From positions 1 to 50,610 of the forward strand of contig JAADGJ010000118.1 in the NCBI GenBank assembly GCA_013152435.1: 50,610 nt of DNA, in the 5' to 3' direction. Positions within the stretch are counted from its first letter, which is position 1. Every line of letters starts with the position of its first letter. Below are positions 3,486-39,221 of the stretch, one piece after another. The DNA is from Chloroflexota bacterium. Its GTDB lineage: Bacteria; Chloroflexota; Anaerolineae; DUEN01. Made by a program: the position numbers and the translations under genes. The notes under the pieces are model-generated. The model did not search any database. It was not told the origin of the DNA and saw nothing but the letters and a program-made list of their open reading frames with translations.

Positions 3486-3726
3486 CAGCGTGTCTGAAAA
3501 TTTACCGGCAAGATGTCTGAGGGACCTCCCTCAACGACCAACTCCACAGGGGGAGGTGTGGAGGGGGCCTCCCCTCCACGGAAATCCCACTTTTCCAGCC
3601 TGCACCTGCCTCTCTCGGTCCTTCCCGAAGGGTCCGGGCCGAGGCTGGGCAGATCGAAGACAAAAGAAGGGCTTTTTCCGGAGGGCCTCTCCACAGCAGA
3701 AGCAACGGCATTTTTCAGACACACTC
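3486..3726 (+). mobile_element. MITE copy 1 (241 bp, IS5/IS1031-like ends)
   Basis: Non-autonomous element. The left end CAGCGTGTCTGAAAA and right end TTTTTCAGACACACTC form terminal inverted repeats. A direct repeat TAA at 3483-3485 and 3727-3729 is the target duplication, and the left TAA is the stop codon of the agmatinase. The interior holds CCTGCC...GGCCGAG hairpin segments shared with the other copies. It encodes no protein. Confidence 0.85.
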
Positions 3727-3810
3727 TAACAGCTCGCTGAAACCGCCCTGCCAAGCGCATCAGGCGTATCACGCCCTGGACTGAGGAATTTCTTCGATGA
3801 GAAAAACGCC

Positions 3811-3942: not shown

Positions 3943-5166
3943 CTACCGCATGGATCGCCAGCGGTCGGCCAGACTCTGCGATCGAGTGGCATCCCGGATC
4001 AGCGCCTTCGCGGAGGGCTTCGCCCAGGAAGGCGGCGGCACGTCATAGTCGAACCCCGGCAGGGTTCTGCGCTCGATCTTGCGCCCCAGCAAGTGCTCGA
4101 TCCGATAGACCAGCGCCTCGTCGTCCGGGGTGACCAGCGTGATGGCATCGCCATCCGCCTCGGCGCGGGCCGTACGCCCGATCCGATGCACGTAATCCTC
4201 GGGGTGCTCCGGCACGTCGTAGTTGAGCACATGAGAGATGCCCTTCACATCCCACCCCCGAGCGGCGATATTCGTGGCGACCAGGACTCGATGCCTGCCA
4301 GATCGGAAGCCCTCCATGGCGGCGATTCGATCCCGCTGCTTGAAATCCCCATGGATGCACGCCGTGGCGATCCCGGCCTGACGCAGCTGCCGGGTCACGA
4401 TATTGGCCTGCTGCTTGGTCCGGGTGAAGACCAGCATACTCTGGATCTCCATCTGTTCCAGCATGGCCACCAGAAGCTTCGTCTTAAGGTGCCTGGGCAC
4501 CGGGTAAAGCGTCTGCTGGATCGCCTCGGGAGGACGGGCCAGATCGATCTTGATGTTCACCGGATCGCGTTGGAACTGGCGAGCCAGCGCCAGGATCGCC
4601 GGGGGCATCGTGGCTGAGAAGAGCATGGTCTGGCGTTGGCGAGGCATGCGGTTGACGATCCGCTTGATATCGGGCAGGAAGCCCATATCCAACATCCGGT
4701 CGGCCTCATCCAGCACGAGGACCTGCACGTCCTGGAAGCTCACGTTCCTGCGGCGCATATGGTCCATCAGGCGCCCCGGTGTGGCGACGACGATATCGAC
4801 GCCCCGACGCAGTTGATCGGTTTGCTTCTTCATCCCGGCCCCGCCGTACACGGCTACGCCGCGCAATGAGGTGCGAGCGGTGAGCTTCCGGGCTTCCCCG
4901 GCGACCTGGATGGCCAGCTCACGAGTCGGCTCCAGGATCACGATGCGGGGGTTGCGGGTTCGGGCTGGCTCTCGCAGCAGGCGATCCAGCGCCGGCAGGA
5001 GAAAAGCCAACGTCTTGCCGGTGCCCGTCTGGGCGCAGCCGACGATATCGCGCTTTTGCAGGCCGGGCGGGATCGCCCGGGTCTGAATCGGTGTCGTCTC
5101 CTCATACCCTAGGGCGCTGATCGCCTCCTGTATAGGTCCGCTTAAATCTAATTCTGTAAAGTACAT
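3943..5166 (-). CDS. DEAD-box ATP-dependent RNA helicase (RhlE-like)
   Basis: A 407-residue two-domain RNA helicase. Visible motifs in order: Q motif (GYEETTPIQTRAIP), motif I AQTGTGKT, Ia PTRELA, Ib TPGRL, motif II DEAD (VLDEADRMLDMGF), motif III SAT, then in domain 2 VFTRTK, the GDFKQ region, ATNIAARGWD and HRIGRTAR. A short basic tail follows. Such enzymes unwind RNA in ribosome assembly, mRNA decay and cold adaptation. The start at 5166 is chosen because AAAGGAG precedes it by the right distance and the Q motif follows closely; an in-frame ATG at 5301 would put the predicted promoter start and terminator inside the coding region. The gene has its own promoter, a roughly 138-nt leader with a terminator hairpin, and its own terminator at the 3' end. 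Confidence 0.93.
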   Translation of the reverse strand: MYFTELDLSGPIQEAISALGYEETTPIQTRAIPPGLQKRDIVGCAQTGTGKTLAFLLPALDRLLREPARTRNPRIVILEPTRELAIQVAGEARKLTARTSLRGVAVYGGAGMKKQTDQLRRGVDIVVATPGRLMDHMRRRNVSFQDVQVLVLDEADRMLDMGFLPDIKRIVNRMPRQRQTMLFSATMPPAILALARQFQRDPVNIKIDLARPPEAIQQTLYPVPRHLKTKLLVAMLEQMEIQSMLVFTRTKQQANIVTRQLRQAGIATACIHGDFKQRDRIAAMEGFRSGRHRVLVATNIAARGWDVKGISHVLNYDVPEHPEDYVHRIGRTARAEADGDAITLVTPDDEALVYRIEHLLGRKIERRTLPGFDYDVPPPSWAKPSAKALIRDATRSQSLADRWRSMR

Positions 5167-5233
5167 GGAACTCCTTTGATCTTCCTCACGTTCATGCAGG
5201 CATTTGACCTGCGGATTCGCGTTGGTTCGAGTG

Positions 5234-5271
5234 TTATAAAAAACCGCCCCGATTGCGTGAATCGGAGCGGT
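5234..5271 (-). terminator. Leader terminator (candidate attenuator) upstream of the helicase
   Basis: On the minus strand CCGCTCCGATT-CACGC-AATCGGGGCGG forms an 11-bp stem (one G-U) followed by TTTTTT and TATAA. It sits about 33-68 nt after the predicted transcription start and about 70 nt before the helicase ATG, inside the 5' leader. No gene upstream on this strand needs ending here. AATCGG at 5290-5285 could pair with CCGATT of the left arm (5265-5260) as an alternative structure. Confidence 0.8.
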
Positions 5272-5310
5272 AAGGGATGCCAAACCGATTGACTTCACCA
5301 ACGGTACCTG

Positions 5311-5339
5311 ATTATACCCGCGAATGGGGCTGGTGTCAA
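5311..5339 (-). promoter_or_regulatory. Perfect consensus promoter of the DEAD-box helicase
   Basis: Read on the minus strand: TTGACA (5339-5334), a 17-bp spacer, TATAAT (5316-5311). All twelve bases match the housekeeping consensus. The predicted start is near 5304. Confidence 0.88.
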
Positions 5340-5566: not shown

Positions 5567-6163
5567 ATGATGACCAGACAGAAGATCACGTTCTTCCTCA
5601 TCGTCGGATCGGCGGTAATCCTCGTGATCGTCGCCTCGGCCCTGCATGGATGGCCAGGGGAACCATCAGGACTTCCGAGCCGGGGTACGGCAGAGCCCAC
5701 CGCCGAGGGGACGCCCTCTCCCGAGGCACTGGTCACCGAGATCCTCAGCGGTAAACGCACGTGGAACGGGCTCCAGATCGGGGTGATCAGCGTCGAAGAG
5801 GACGGGTGGCCGCTGGTGAAGGCGCAAAACCCATACAATGAGCCGCCAGCGCCCGGGAAGCGGATGTTGCTGGTCACCGTGCAGGTCGAGAAGGCGGAAG
5901 ACGCGGACGATCAGCCGGTCTCCGTCGGGGCACAAGACTTCAAGGTAGTCGGCGAACGGGGCGTCGTCTACACCACGTACGGCAAGGAGACGAGATGTGG
6001 GGTGGTGCCCGATGAACTGGACGGGGTGGTGACGCCCGATCACCCGATCAGCGGCGCCATATGCGTGCAGGTACCGGAGGACGAGAAGGACCTCGTCCTG
6101 GTGTATGAGCCGTATGTCGGGGACAAGCCGGCGGTGTACATCCCCCTACCGCCGGGGAAATGA
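5567..6163 (+). CDS. Membrane-anchored DUF4352-like exported protein
   Basis: A 198-residue protein with a basic start and one hydrophobic segment (residues ~6-27, ITFFLIVGSAVILVIVASAL) acting as signal peptide or anchor. A Pro/Thr/Glu-rich linker follows, then a domain of about 130 residues (WNGLQIGVISVEEDGWPLV to LVYEPYVGDKPAVYIPL). The immunoglobulin-like pattern (strand LLVTVQVEKAED, then DFKVVGERGVVYTTYG, then DLVLVYEP) fits DUF4352/telomeric-repeat-factor-like extracellular modules. Such proteins have no catalytic role that can be read from sequence. It is divergent from the helicase gene. Confidence 0.7.
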   Translation: MMTRQKITFFLIVGSAVILVIVASALHGWPGEPSGLPSRGTAEPTAEGTPSPEALVTEILSGKRTWNGLQIGVISVEEDGWPLVKAQNPYNEPPAPGKRMLLVTVQVEKAEDADDQPVSVGAQDFKVVGERGVVYTTYGKETRCGVVPDELDGVVTPDHPISGAICVQVPEDEKDLVLVYEPYVGDKPAVYIPLPPGK

Positions 6164-6891: not shown

Positions 6892-7146
6892 GAGCGTGTC
6901 TGAAAATTTCCCGGCAAGATGTCTGAGGGTCTCCCCCAACTCCAGATCCACAAGGGGAGGTGTGGAGGGGAGGACCCCTCCACGGAAATCCCACTTTTCC
7001 GGCCTGTACCTGCCTTTCTCGGCCCTTCCCGAAGGACCCAGGCCGAGACCAGGCAGGTCGAAGGCAAAAGAAGGGCTTTTTCCGGAGGGGCTCCGCCCCT
7101 CCGAGCCTCCCCACAGCAGAAGCAACGGCATTTTTCAGACACACTC
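6892..7146 (+). mobile_element. MITE copy 2 (255 bp)
   Basis: Left end GAGCGTGTCTGAAAA, right end TTTTTCAGACACACTC. The target duplication TTA is at 6889-6891 and 7147-7149. It lies between the two methyltransferase genes. Several open frames run through it and even into the next gene, but they are by-products of its GC-rich sequence. Confidence 0.88.
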
Positions 7147-7182
7147 TTAGATGGATCACCCGAGATGCAGGAGGAGAGAGCG

Positions 7183-7858: not shown

Positions 7859-7929
7859 CTCGGGGACGAGGACTCGAACCTCGACCAAGGGATCCAAAGT
7901 CCCCCGTCCTGCCATTAGACGATCCCCGA
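7859..7929 (-). tRNA. tRNA-Gln (UUG)
   Basis: Cloverleaf read on the minus strand: acceptor TCGGGGA/TCCCCGA, anticodon loop CTTTGGA with anticodon TTG, T arm GAGGTTCGAGTCCTC, discriminator G. CCA is not encoded. Last gene of the rnpB-tRNA unit. Confidence 0.93.
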
Positions 7930-7947
7930 CTACACGGGTACTCCTGA

Positions 7948-8021
<74 letters not shown>

Positions 8022-8033
8022 AAACAGAAAAGG

Positions 8034-8105
<72 letters not shown>

Positions 8106-8182
8106 TTGTTGGATCGGGACATGAGATAGAGATAGAGGAGAATCCTCCATCACTATCGCCTGCCCCTATCTCTATCCGCTCG

Positions 8183-8255
<73 letters not shown>

Positions 8256-8278
8256 GAACGACCAGGTGCCCGTCACGA

Positions 8279-8367
<89 letters not shown>

Positions 8368-8378
8368 AACCTGGATAC

Positions 8379-8809
<431 letters not shown>

Positions 8810-8849
8810 GTATAAGTTTCCTCGCTTGTAACGTGCCTCAGCGGGCAGC

Positions 8850-8878
8850 ATTATAGCACAGCGACCCCCATGTGTCAA
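8850..8878 (-). promoter_or_regulatory. Perfect consensus promoter of rnpB and the tRNA cluster
   Basis: On the minus strand TTGACA (8878-8873), 17 bp, TATAAT (8855-8850), with a TGC just before the -10 (extended -10). A start near 8843 is predicted. No other clear promoter was seen inside the tRNA cluster. Confidence 0.88.
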
Positions 8879-37529: not shown

Positions 37530-39143
37530 ATGGGTGTGGTAACGGATCGTGAGGATATCAAGAAGATCCGCACCGGTGATAACGGAGACGAGCGATACTC
37601 CGACATCATCGACGTGCAGGAGTTTTTCGACCGTGTGCTGACAGCTTACGAACAGGGCACGGCAGATGCGGAGCTGGAGGCCGACGAGGAGGTCGGCCGC
37701 AGCCTGGTTCCGGCTGGTACGGGTGCGTTGCGAGACTTCTCCTACATCGCGCCGGAGATCCCACGCTTCATCGCCGAAAACTGCGTGGGCTGCATGGAGT
37801 GCGTCACCGAGTGCCCGGACACGGCGATCCTGGGCAAGGTGGTGGAGCCGGATGTGTTGGATCAACACCTGGCGGAGGTCGAGGACGAGGCCGTCCGAGA
37901 GGACCTGCGCCAGCAGTTCGCCAAGACCACCAAGTACTACACCAGTTACGAGCGCAAGGGCCAGAAGCCCGGCCTTTTCAGCATCATGATCGATCCCACG
38001 AAGTGCAAGGGGTGCGCGGAGTGCGTGGTAGCCTGCGGCGATCACAACGCGTTGCAGATGATCCGAAAGCAGGACGATACCATCCCCACCTACCGCAAGC
38101 GGATCGAGTTCTTCCGCAAGCTGCCGGAGACGCCGGAGCGCTTCATCAACGAGCGTGTGCTGGCGGACATGATGCTGGCCGAGCGCTCGCTGCTGTACGT
38201 CGGCGGGGCGGGCTCCTGCGCGGGCTGCGGCGAGGCCACCGTGATCCGCATGATGCTGGCGGCCACCGGGTTCGTCTACGGAGCGGAGAACATCGGCATC
38301 GTGGCGGCTACGGGCTGCAACACGGTGTACGGTTCCACCTACCCCTATAACCCCTACCGGGTCTCCTGGACCAACTCGCTGTTTGAAAACGCCCCGGCCG
38401 ACGCCATGGGCATTCGCGCTCGCTGGGATCAGATGGGCTGGCAGGAGAAGCGGCTGTGGGTGCTGGGCGGCGACGGGGCCATGCTCGACATCGGATTCCA
38501 GTCCCTCAGCCGGATGCTGGCCTCCGGCATGGACATCAAGGTCCTGGTGCTGGACACCCAGGTCTACTCCAACACCGGCGGCCAAGCCTCCACCGCCACG
38601 TACACCGGCCAGAACACCAAGATGTCCGTCCACGGCAAGGCGATTGAGGGCAAGCAGGAGCAGCGCAAGGAGCTGGGGATGATCGCCATGATGCACCCCA
38701 ACGTGTTCGTGGCGCAGACCACGGCCGCGCACATCAACCACTTCTACCGGGCCATCATGGATGCGAACTCGTTCCCCGGCCCGGCCGTGGTGAACGTGTA
38801 TACCACCTGCCAGCCGGAGCACGGCGTCGCCGACGATATGTCCTTGCACCAGGCCAAGCTGGCCGTCGACTCCCGGGCATTCCCGATCTTCATCTACGAC
38901 CCGAGGAAGGGGAGCACGTTCCGAGAGCGGCTCAGCCTGCGCGGCAACCCGGCCATGAAGGAGGACTGGTACAGGAACCCCAAGACGGGCGAGGTGATCG
39001 ACTTCATCTACTTCGCTCGCACGGAGGGGCGGTTCGCCAAGCAATTCGATCAGGACGGGAACCCTTCGGAGACGCTGCTGCGGGCCAATGCGGACCGGCT
39101 GGCCAACTGGCACCGGTTGCAGGAATTGGCGGGATTGCGCTGA
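37530..39143 (+). CDS. porB: 2-oxoacid (pyruvate):ferredoxin oxidoreductase, ferredoxin-beta subunit
   Basis: A 537-residue subunit. The N-terminal ferredoxin (delta-like) part binds two [4Fe-4S] clusters through NCVGCMECVTECPD and KCKGCAECVVACGD. The beta part binds thiamine diphosphate: GAGSCAGCGEATVIR with the proximal cluster cysteines, AATGCNTVYGSTYPY, and GGDGAMLDIGFQSLSRML to VYSNTGGQ. A further cluster Cys is in VYTTCQPEHG. It follows porA by 47 bases in an operon. The two genes correspond to the single-chain NifJ-type enzyme cut in two. Confidence 0.93.
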   Translation: MGVVTDREDIKKIRTGDNGDERYSDIIDVQEFFDRVLTAYEQGTADAELEADEEVGRSLVPAGTGALRDFSYIAPEIPRFIAENCVGCMECVTECPDTAILGKVVEPDVLDQHLAEVEDEAVREDLRQQFAKTTKYYTSYERKGQKPGLFSIMIDPTKCKGCAECVVACGDHNALQMIRKQDDTIPTYRKRIEFFRKLPETPERFINERVLADMMLAERSLLYVGGAGSCAGCGEATVIRMMLAATGFVYGAENIGIVAATGCNTVYGSTYPYNPYRVSWTNSLFENAPADAMGIRARWDQMGWQEKRLWVLGGDGAMLDIGFQSLSRMLASGMDIKVLVLDTQVYSNTGGQASTATYTGQNTKMSVHGKAIEGKQEQRKELGMIAMMHPNVFVAQTTAAHINHFYRAIMDANSFPGPAVVNVYTTCQPEHGVADDMSLHQAKLAVDSRAFPIFIYDPRKGSTFRERLSLRGNPAMKEDWYRNPKTGEVIDFIYFARTEGRFAKQFDQDGNPSETLLRANADRLANWHRLQELAGLR

Positions 39144-39155
39144 TCCGGGTATAAT
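39126..39155 (+). promoter_or_regulatory. Promoter of the ABC-class ATPase gene
   Basis: TTGGCG (39126-39131), 18 bp, TATAAT (39150-39155), overlapping the end of porB. Confidence 0.6.
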
Positions 39156-39190
39156 GGCCCACTGACATCACCGGTCGGAGGGAGATCACG

Positions 39191-39221
39191 GGGGCGGGCT
39201 TTGCAAGCCTGCCCCTGTTTT
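39191..39221 (+). terminator. Terminator-like hairpin between porB and the ATPase gene
   Basis: GGGGCGGGCTT-TGC-AAGCCTGCCCC (11 bp, one G-U) is followed by TGTTTTG. It could end porAB transcripts, but it lies after the next promoter, so it could also attenuate the ATPase gene. It resembles the dispersed palindromes. Confidence 0.6.

Follow-up and report, generated by a model that had tools for sequence, protein, structure and literature searches.

We propose that the DEAD-box RNA helicase gene in the window (the whole 50,610-nt stretch of DNA analysed here) is preceded by a transcription attenuator, and that this leader is probably a shared switch of a cold-shock and RNA-chaperone regulon. 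An intrinsic terminator lies between the promoter and the start codon, and the helicase leaders carry a conserved alternative pairing that excludes this terminator; for the corresponding leaders of csp genes such a pairing has moderate support. The elements to which we refer are the following, from the promoter downstream.

5311-5339, minus strand: sigma-70 type promoter, with TTGACA at 5339-5334, a 17-bp spacer and TATAAT at 5316-5311 (12/12 consensus)
5304-5306, minus strand: inferred transcription start, near 5305, placed about 7 nt past the -10 box from the promoter position
5297-5303, minus strand: 5' strand of outer helix P1, CGTTGGT, in the minimum free energy (MFE) fold; its partner is 5226-5220
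5285-5290, minus strand: antiterminator strand AATCGG, of which ATCGG is invariant in 14 leaders
5280-5282, minus strand: second antiterminator block, TGG, paired with CCG at 5270-5268 as in the nascent-RNA folds of orthologues
5243-5271, minus strand: intrinsic terminator hairpin, with 5' arm 5271-5260, loop 5259-5255 and 3' arm 5254-5243
5260-5265, minus strand: CCGATT, common to the inner part of the terminator 5' arm and the antiterminator (98.8% of antiterminator cells paired)
5238-5243, minus strand: terminator U-tract, T6
5220-5226, minus strand: 3' strand of outer helix P1, ACCAACG, in the MFE fold, transcribed only upon read-through
5196-5212, minus strand: small hairpin GCAGG-CCTGC before the Shine-Dalgarno (SD) sequence, present in L112 and L113 too
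5171-5177, minus strand: Shine-Dalgarno sequence AAAGGAG
3943-5166, minus strand: DEAD-box RNA helicase, 407 aa, with ATG at 5166 (PF00270 and PF00271)

The initial annotation had described a perfect promoter followed by an intrinsic terminator that serves no upstream gene. The promoter indeed matches the consensus at all 12 positions (TTGACA-17-TATAAT, minus strand 5339-5311), and only one other promoter in the window is equally perfect, that of the RNase P RNA. The terminator with its T6 tract is also present (5271-5243), but its stem has 12 bp rather than the 11 bp described, closed by a 5-nt loop. In a transcript starting near 5305 the terminator ends about 65 nt in and the helicase ATG lies about 140 nt in. 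The upstream neighbour is a divergent ORF on the plus strand (5567-6163), and because it reads the opposite way no upstream gene needs the terminator, as had been supposed. The leader is single-copy in its own genome. Its whole-leader fold energy is unexceptional (z = -1.6); the weight rests on conservation instead. Elsewhere in the window, a second promoter-terminator pair (39126-39213, plus strand) was rejected as ordinary, marking one gene's end before the next. Five tRNA genes and the RNase P RNA occupy 7859-8878 on the minus strand, with the 12/12 promoter of the latter close before it at 8878, and two similar repeat-like copies of about 240 bases (3490-3740 and 6896-7150) contain similar spurious ORFs.

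In the mechanism that we propose, RNA polymerase would start at the consensus promoter and make the 5' segment (AAUCGGUUUGG) first. The emerging 5' arm of the terminator would then pair with this segment (AAUCGG:CCGAUU plus UGG:CCG), delaying or preventing formation of the terminator. Displacement of the 5' segment would let the 12-bp terminator form and end transcription after about 65 nt, whereas an antiterminator that holds would let the polymerase read through into the helicase gene. We infer that termination is regulated in this way. RNA chaperones or warmth would remove the antiterminator segment, and read-through would be favoured by cold, or by low RNA-chaperone or helicase activity, since under either the weaker antiterminator would persist. 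The products of the genes may then close a negative feedback loop.

The anatomy of the leader, its conservation and its gene set all emerge from sequence comparison. Searched with the helicase protein, 298 class genomes gave 11 new matches (66-85% identity), and two further helicases (L209 and L212, 72-77% identity) were found via the leader, making 14 orthologues with the window's own helicase included. The leader is retained in 13 of these 14 same-class orthologues, which are 66-85% identical: the promoter is followed about 10-30 nt on by a segment resembling AAGTNRATCGGTYTGGC, of which L116, L120 and L121 have a shortened or diverged form, and then by the hairpin and T-run. The promoter matches the consensus at 12/12 positions in L112, L113, L114, L117, L194 and L195, and L118 keeps the helicase SD directly past the terminator. 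The remaining orthologue, L122 (G160:C12), is leaderless, with a TTGACA-17-TATAAC promoter, the ATG about 6 nt on and no terminator. Among relatives from the window's own genus and family, those searched had no close helicase homologue. A near-identical leader is also found on three distant helicases of about 48% identity (L013, L194 and L195) with a different downstream region, which argues that the module has been kept or exchanged in one piece.

Searching 396 class genomes with a covariance model of the helicase leader (R1) yielded 16 strong matches (E < 1e-5), each immediately before a DEAD-box helicase. Its weaker matches led to csp and FKBP genes and to genes of ArfB-like (RF-1 domain) proteins; as leaders, matches weaker than about E = 1e-5 were discarded, being mostly plain terminators. 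One helicase-type leader (L222, G250:C1:4603655-4603733) stands before the gene of an ArfB-like ribosome-rescue protein with an RF-1 domain. Helicase homologues occur in viral contigs as well.

The alternative pairing of AATCGG (5290-5285) with CCGATT (5265-5260), which the initial annotation had noticed as overlapping a terminator arm, is real. In an alignment of 14 helicase leaders it is paired in 98.8% of cells, compared with 4-67% for slid controls. Comparing the hairpin across orthologous helicase leaders, as had also been suggested, gave a terminator that is paired in 95.8% of cells of that alignment. There is little covariation within the AATCGG:CCGATT helix because both of its strands are nearly invariant. 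The pairing is intact in L121, where the terminator stem has another sequence (ATCCCCCC/GGGGGGAT), and in L120, where the terminator 3' arm has diverged. In nascent RNA cut off where the 3' arm begins, most of 15 helicase leaders have the antiterminator as their MFE structure (AAUCGG:CCGAUU and UGG:CCG, with a 9-nt loop). Pairing of each 5' segment with its own terminator arm, summed over the helicase and csp families, gave -541.5 compared with -487.5 ± 14.7 for permuted combinations (0/5000), a between-family excess that may rest on few independent changes. Outer helix P1 is unsupported across the helicase leader set as a whole and supported in the csp leaders (mean z = -1.0 over 52, with 12 below -1.64). 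Premature termination under an alternative fold, as first suggested, appears well supported, with promoter, AATCGG segment and terminator kept together in 13 of the 14 orthologues.

A second group of helicase leaders in the same class (group 2; L004-L008 and L123-L150) likewise has a promoter, 5' segment, hairpin and U-tract before a DEAD-box helicase, but carries an extra pseudoknot adjoining the SD that the window's leader lacks. Specifically, this candidate pseudoknot (L004-L007 and L123-L150) consists of CCGAYGTG/CACCTCGG crossed by GCGGY/RCCGC. It is paired in 97.9% of cells, helix 2 changes from U-A to C-G in 6 of 16 sequences, and it had no Rfam match in the loci searched. A third type of helicase leader, GCTGAGAGTGCGACTTGGCTC...GAGTCAAGGAGTACTTTCAGTG, folds the SD and start codon into one hairpin and looks like a translational switch (L009, L013, L014, L139, L148, L152, L153, L156, L163 and many of L171-L197). 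Longer paralogous helicases (L018, L019, L021, L023, L024, L026 and L027) carry a conserved hairpin of their own close to the promoter; after it come TTTTGTTGCAACAGGA and more conserved sequence. In one group-2 locus a 6S RNA lies directly downstream of the helicase gene (L005, 2233-2408, minus strand).

Leaders of csp genes in these genomes differ from the helicase leader in sequence but share its design: promoter, GTAGGACGAAGTAAGTTCTGTTTCGG, hairpin CCGCCCAGACTTAC..AGTCTGGGCGG, T-run and SD. Here GUAAG..CUG would pair with CAG.CUUAC of the terminator 5' arm and loop, which is the topology of the helicase leader in other letters. A model of the csp leader (R2, E up to 5e-4) has matches in 70 of the 298 genomes. 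Among the 70 leaders for which the gene behind was read, 61 precede csp genes (57 called by pattern and L259, L308, L319 and L321 by eye), four precede FKBP-type isomerases and two RRM proteins; single cases precede a DEAD-box helicase (L311) and an RNase J-like metallo-beta-lactamase protein (L290), and one leader (L326) runs off its contig. The window's own genome has csp-type leaders on two csp genes. Outside the class, a 350-genome sample of the phylum gave one match only, before an RRM gene (L330). The class itself probably belongs to Chloroflexota: RpoB from the genome of the window shares 80% identity with class members and 76-78% with two named Anaerolineae/Anaerolineales genomes, compared with 58-71% for other phyla. 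Two loci have a csp gene and a DEAD-box helicase in divergent orientation, each with its own such leader (G051:C505 and G142:C371; L258 and L233), and a molybdenum-cofactor riboswitch lies near one csp gene (L283, 1223-1362, minus strand).

In an alignment of 87 csp-type matches, fitted to the terminator, the terminator is paired in 96.3% of cells with a covariation of 0.522 compared with 0.262 after shuffling (0/500), and covariation strongly supports this helix. The csp antiterminator is paired in 72.0% of cells compared with 70.5% after shuffling and 25-47% for slid controls, with 29 double changes where 18 are expected (4/500). Among 32 divergent csp leaders, pairing of own rather than swapped segments and arms showed no excess on permutation. 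A duplex test with shuffled segments was weak for both csp and group-2 leaders, the latter without significant excess. Because of this weak test and the null csp permutation, we claim the csp antiterminator only moderately. From these comparisons the antiterminator appears strongly supported in the helicase family, moderately in the csp family and weakly in the group-2 helicase leaders. The moderate csp result, the group-2 result and the loss of the leader in L122 all count against the attenuator reading.

Since leaders of the same design stand before csp, RRM, RNase J-like, FKBP and DEAD-box genes, we consider a shared regulon switch probable. The element precedes csp, RNA helicase and RNA-binding protein genes, as a shared element of a cold-shock regulon would, and the link to cold gains support because csp, RRM and other RNA-metabolism genes carry leaders of this design.

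The agent that moves the switch could be a protein: a cold-shock protein, an RRM protein or a helicase that binds the 5' segment or melts the hairpin, in which case temperature would act solely via protein levels. The genes behind the leaders encode RNA-binding proteins, and in the csp 5' segments the sequence itself, and not just the pairing, is strongly conserved. Moreover, CspA-family proteins of E. coli have been described as antiterminators, and CspB and CspD of B. subtilis alter read-through at terminators, reportedly favouring termination (PMC8307031). Because of these effects on terminators we treat protein control as an equally serious rival, quite plausible if a little short of probable. 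The binding is putative, however, and protein control needs identical RNA anatomy, so that sequence cannot separate it from an RNA-only version.

In the RNA-only version, the leaders would form a regulon-wide thermoswitch on termination, with no ligand or protein, in which cold slows displacement of the short antiterminator. For the window's nascent RNA the computed antiterminator share is 0.94 at 5°C compared with 0.11 at 37°C. This cold shift is not general, however: most orthologues favour the antiterminator throughout 5-50°C, and we therefore do not use the temperature effect as proof of a thermosensor. Such a thermoswitch is conceivable but rather doubtful. If it is correct, the csp, RNA-helicase, RRM and RNase J-like genes would read through together after cold shock.

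In computed stability the completed terminator exceeds the antiterminator by 10-12 kcal/mol (about 11 at 5-37°C and about 10 at 50-60°C). Because it is far more stable at all computed temperatures, the switch must be kinetic or factor-assisted. The same stability would suit a constitutive, unregulated terminator that merely lowers the output of a strong promoter. However, a fixed attenuator needs neither the invariance of ATCGG in 14 leaders, though it lies outside the terminator, nor an antiterminator that is kept where the terminator arm has changed, which makes this explanation unlikely.

The specificity of the anatomy was checked by listing promoters of at least 10/12 consensus followed 15-75 nt on by a strong terminator. 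This gave 66 cases in 963 kb of single-strand sequence from the class, which is a specificity check and no unbiased background rate, because the loci were picked by helicase or csp matches. All but three distinct listed sequences belong to the window-type leader family or to the group-2 helicase leaders. A strong promoter with a strong terminator is also the anatomy of a small RNA gene, and the terminated product of about 65 nt might act in trans, with helicase read-through as a by-product. We find this hard to credit: nearly every copy of the element lies immediately before a helicase or csp gene, the SD of the gene is kept just past the terminator in orthologues (L118), and the sequence varies while the pairing stays.

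At curated gathering scores, no Rfam family matched the leader, whether in the window, in the helicase loci or in the csp loci. A metabolite riboswitch or leader-peptide attenuator, though it would share the terminator/antiterminator logic, is very improbable given that only about 30 nt precede the terminator, that no Rfam riboswitch matches the leader, that inspection of 5305-5271 found no SD with a start codon ahead of the terminator, and that the gene set is no metabolic pathway.

Attenuators as such have long been known. The pyr operon attenuators of Bacillus subtilis likewise use mutually exclusive hairpins between promoter and gene to decide between termination and read-through, but the leader described here has a sensing segment of only about 30 nt, with no known ligand or protein, and the genes behind it belong to cold shock and RNA metabolism. 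For csp genes, regulation through the 5' UTR has been described chiefly in proteobacteria and Bacillus and is linked to cold, as in the cspA thermoregulator, the cspA leader of E. coli, which has no Rfam match to the leaders here. To our knowledge no promoter-proximal terminator has been described for the cspA leader or for the cold-shock boxes of B. subtilis; these elements act on translation or stability, or their action is unclear. The cold-shock boxes in B. subtilis csp genes are a further case of 5' UTR control tied to cold (PMC8307031). The Chlorobi-RRM motif (RF01697), a candidate cis-regulatory RNA named for RRM-protein genes (PMC2864571), comes from a different phylum, and none of the loci compared with Rfam matched it. 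Searches of full-text literature, with few subscription papers among it, turned up no comparable switch in which cold shock acts on termination.

The leader family is absent from Rfam and appears to control what would be an unusual regulon for an attenuator. One termination switch appears to join csp, RNA helicase, RRM, RNase J-like and FKBP isomerase genes, in a compact leader family whose host class is mostly uncultured. The comparison provides a ready gene list and a testable module of 65 nt, which could find synthetic use as a transcription switch that responds to cold.
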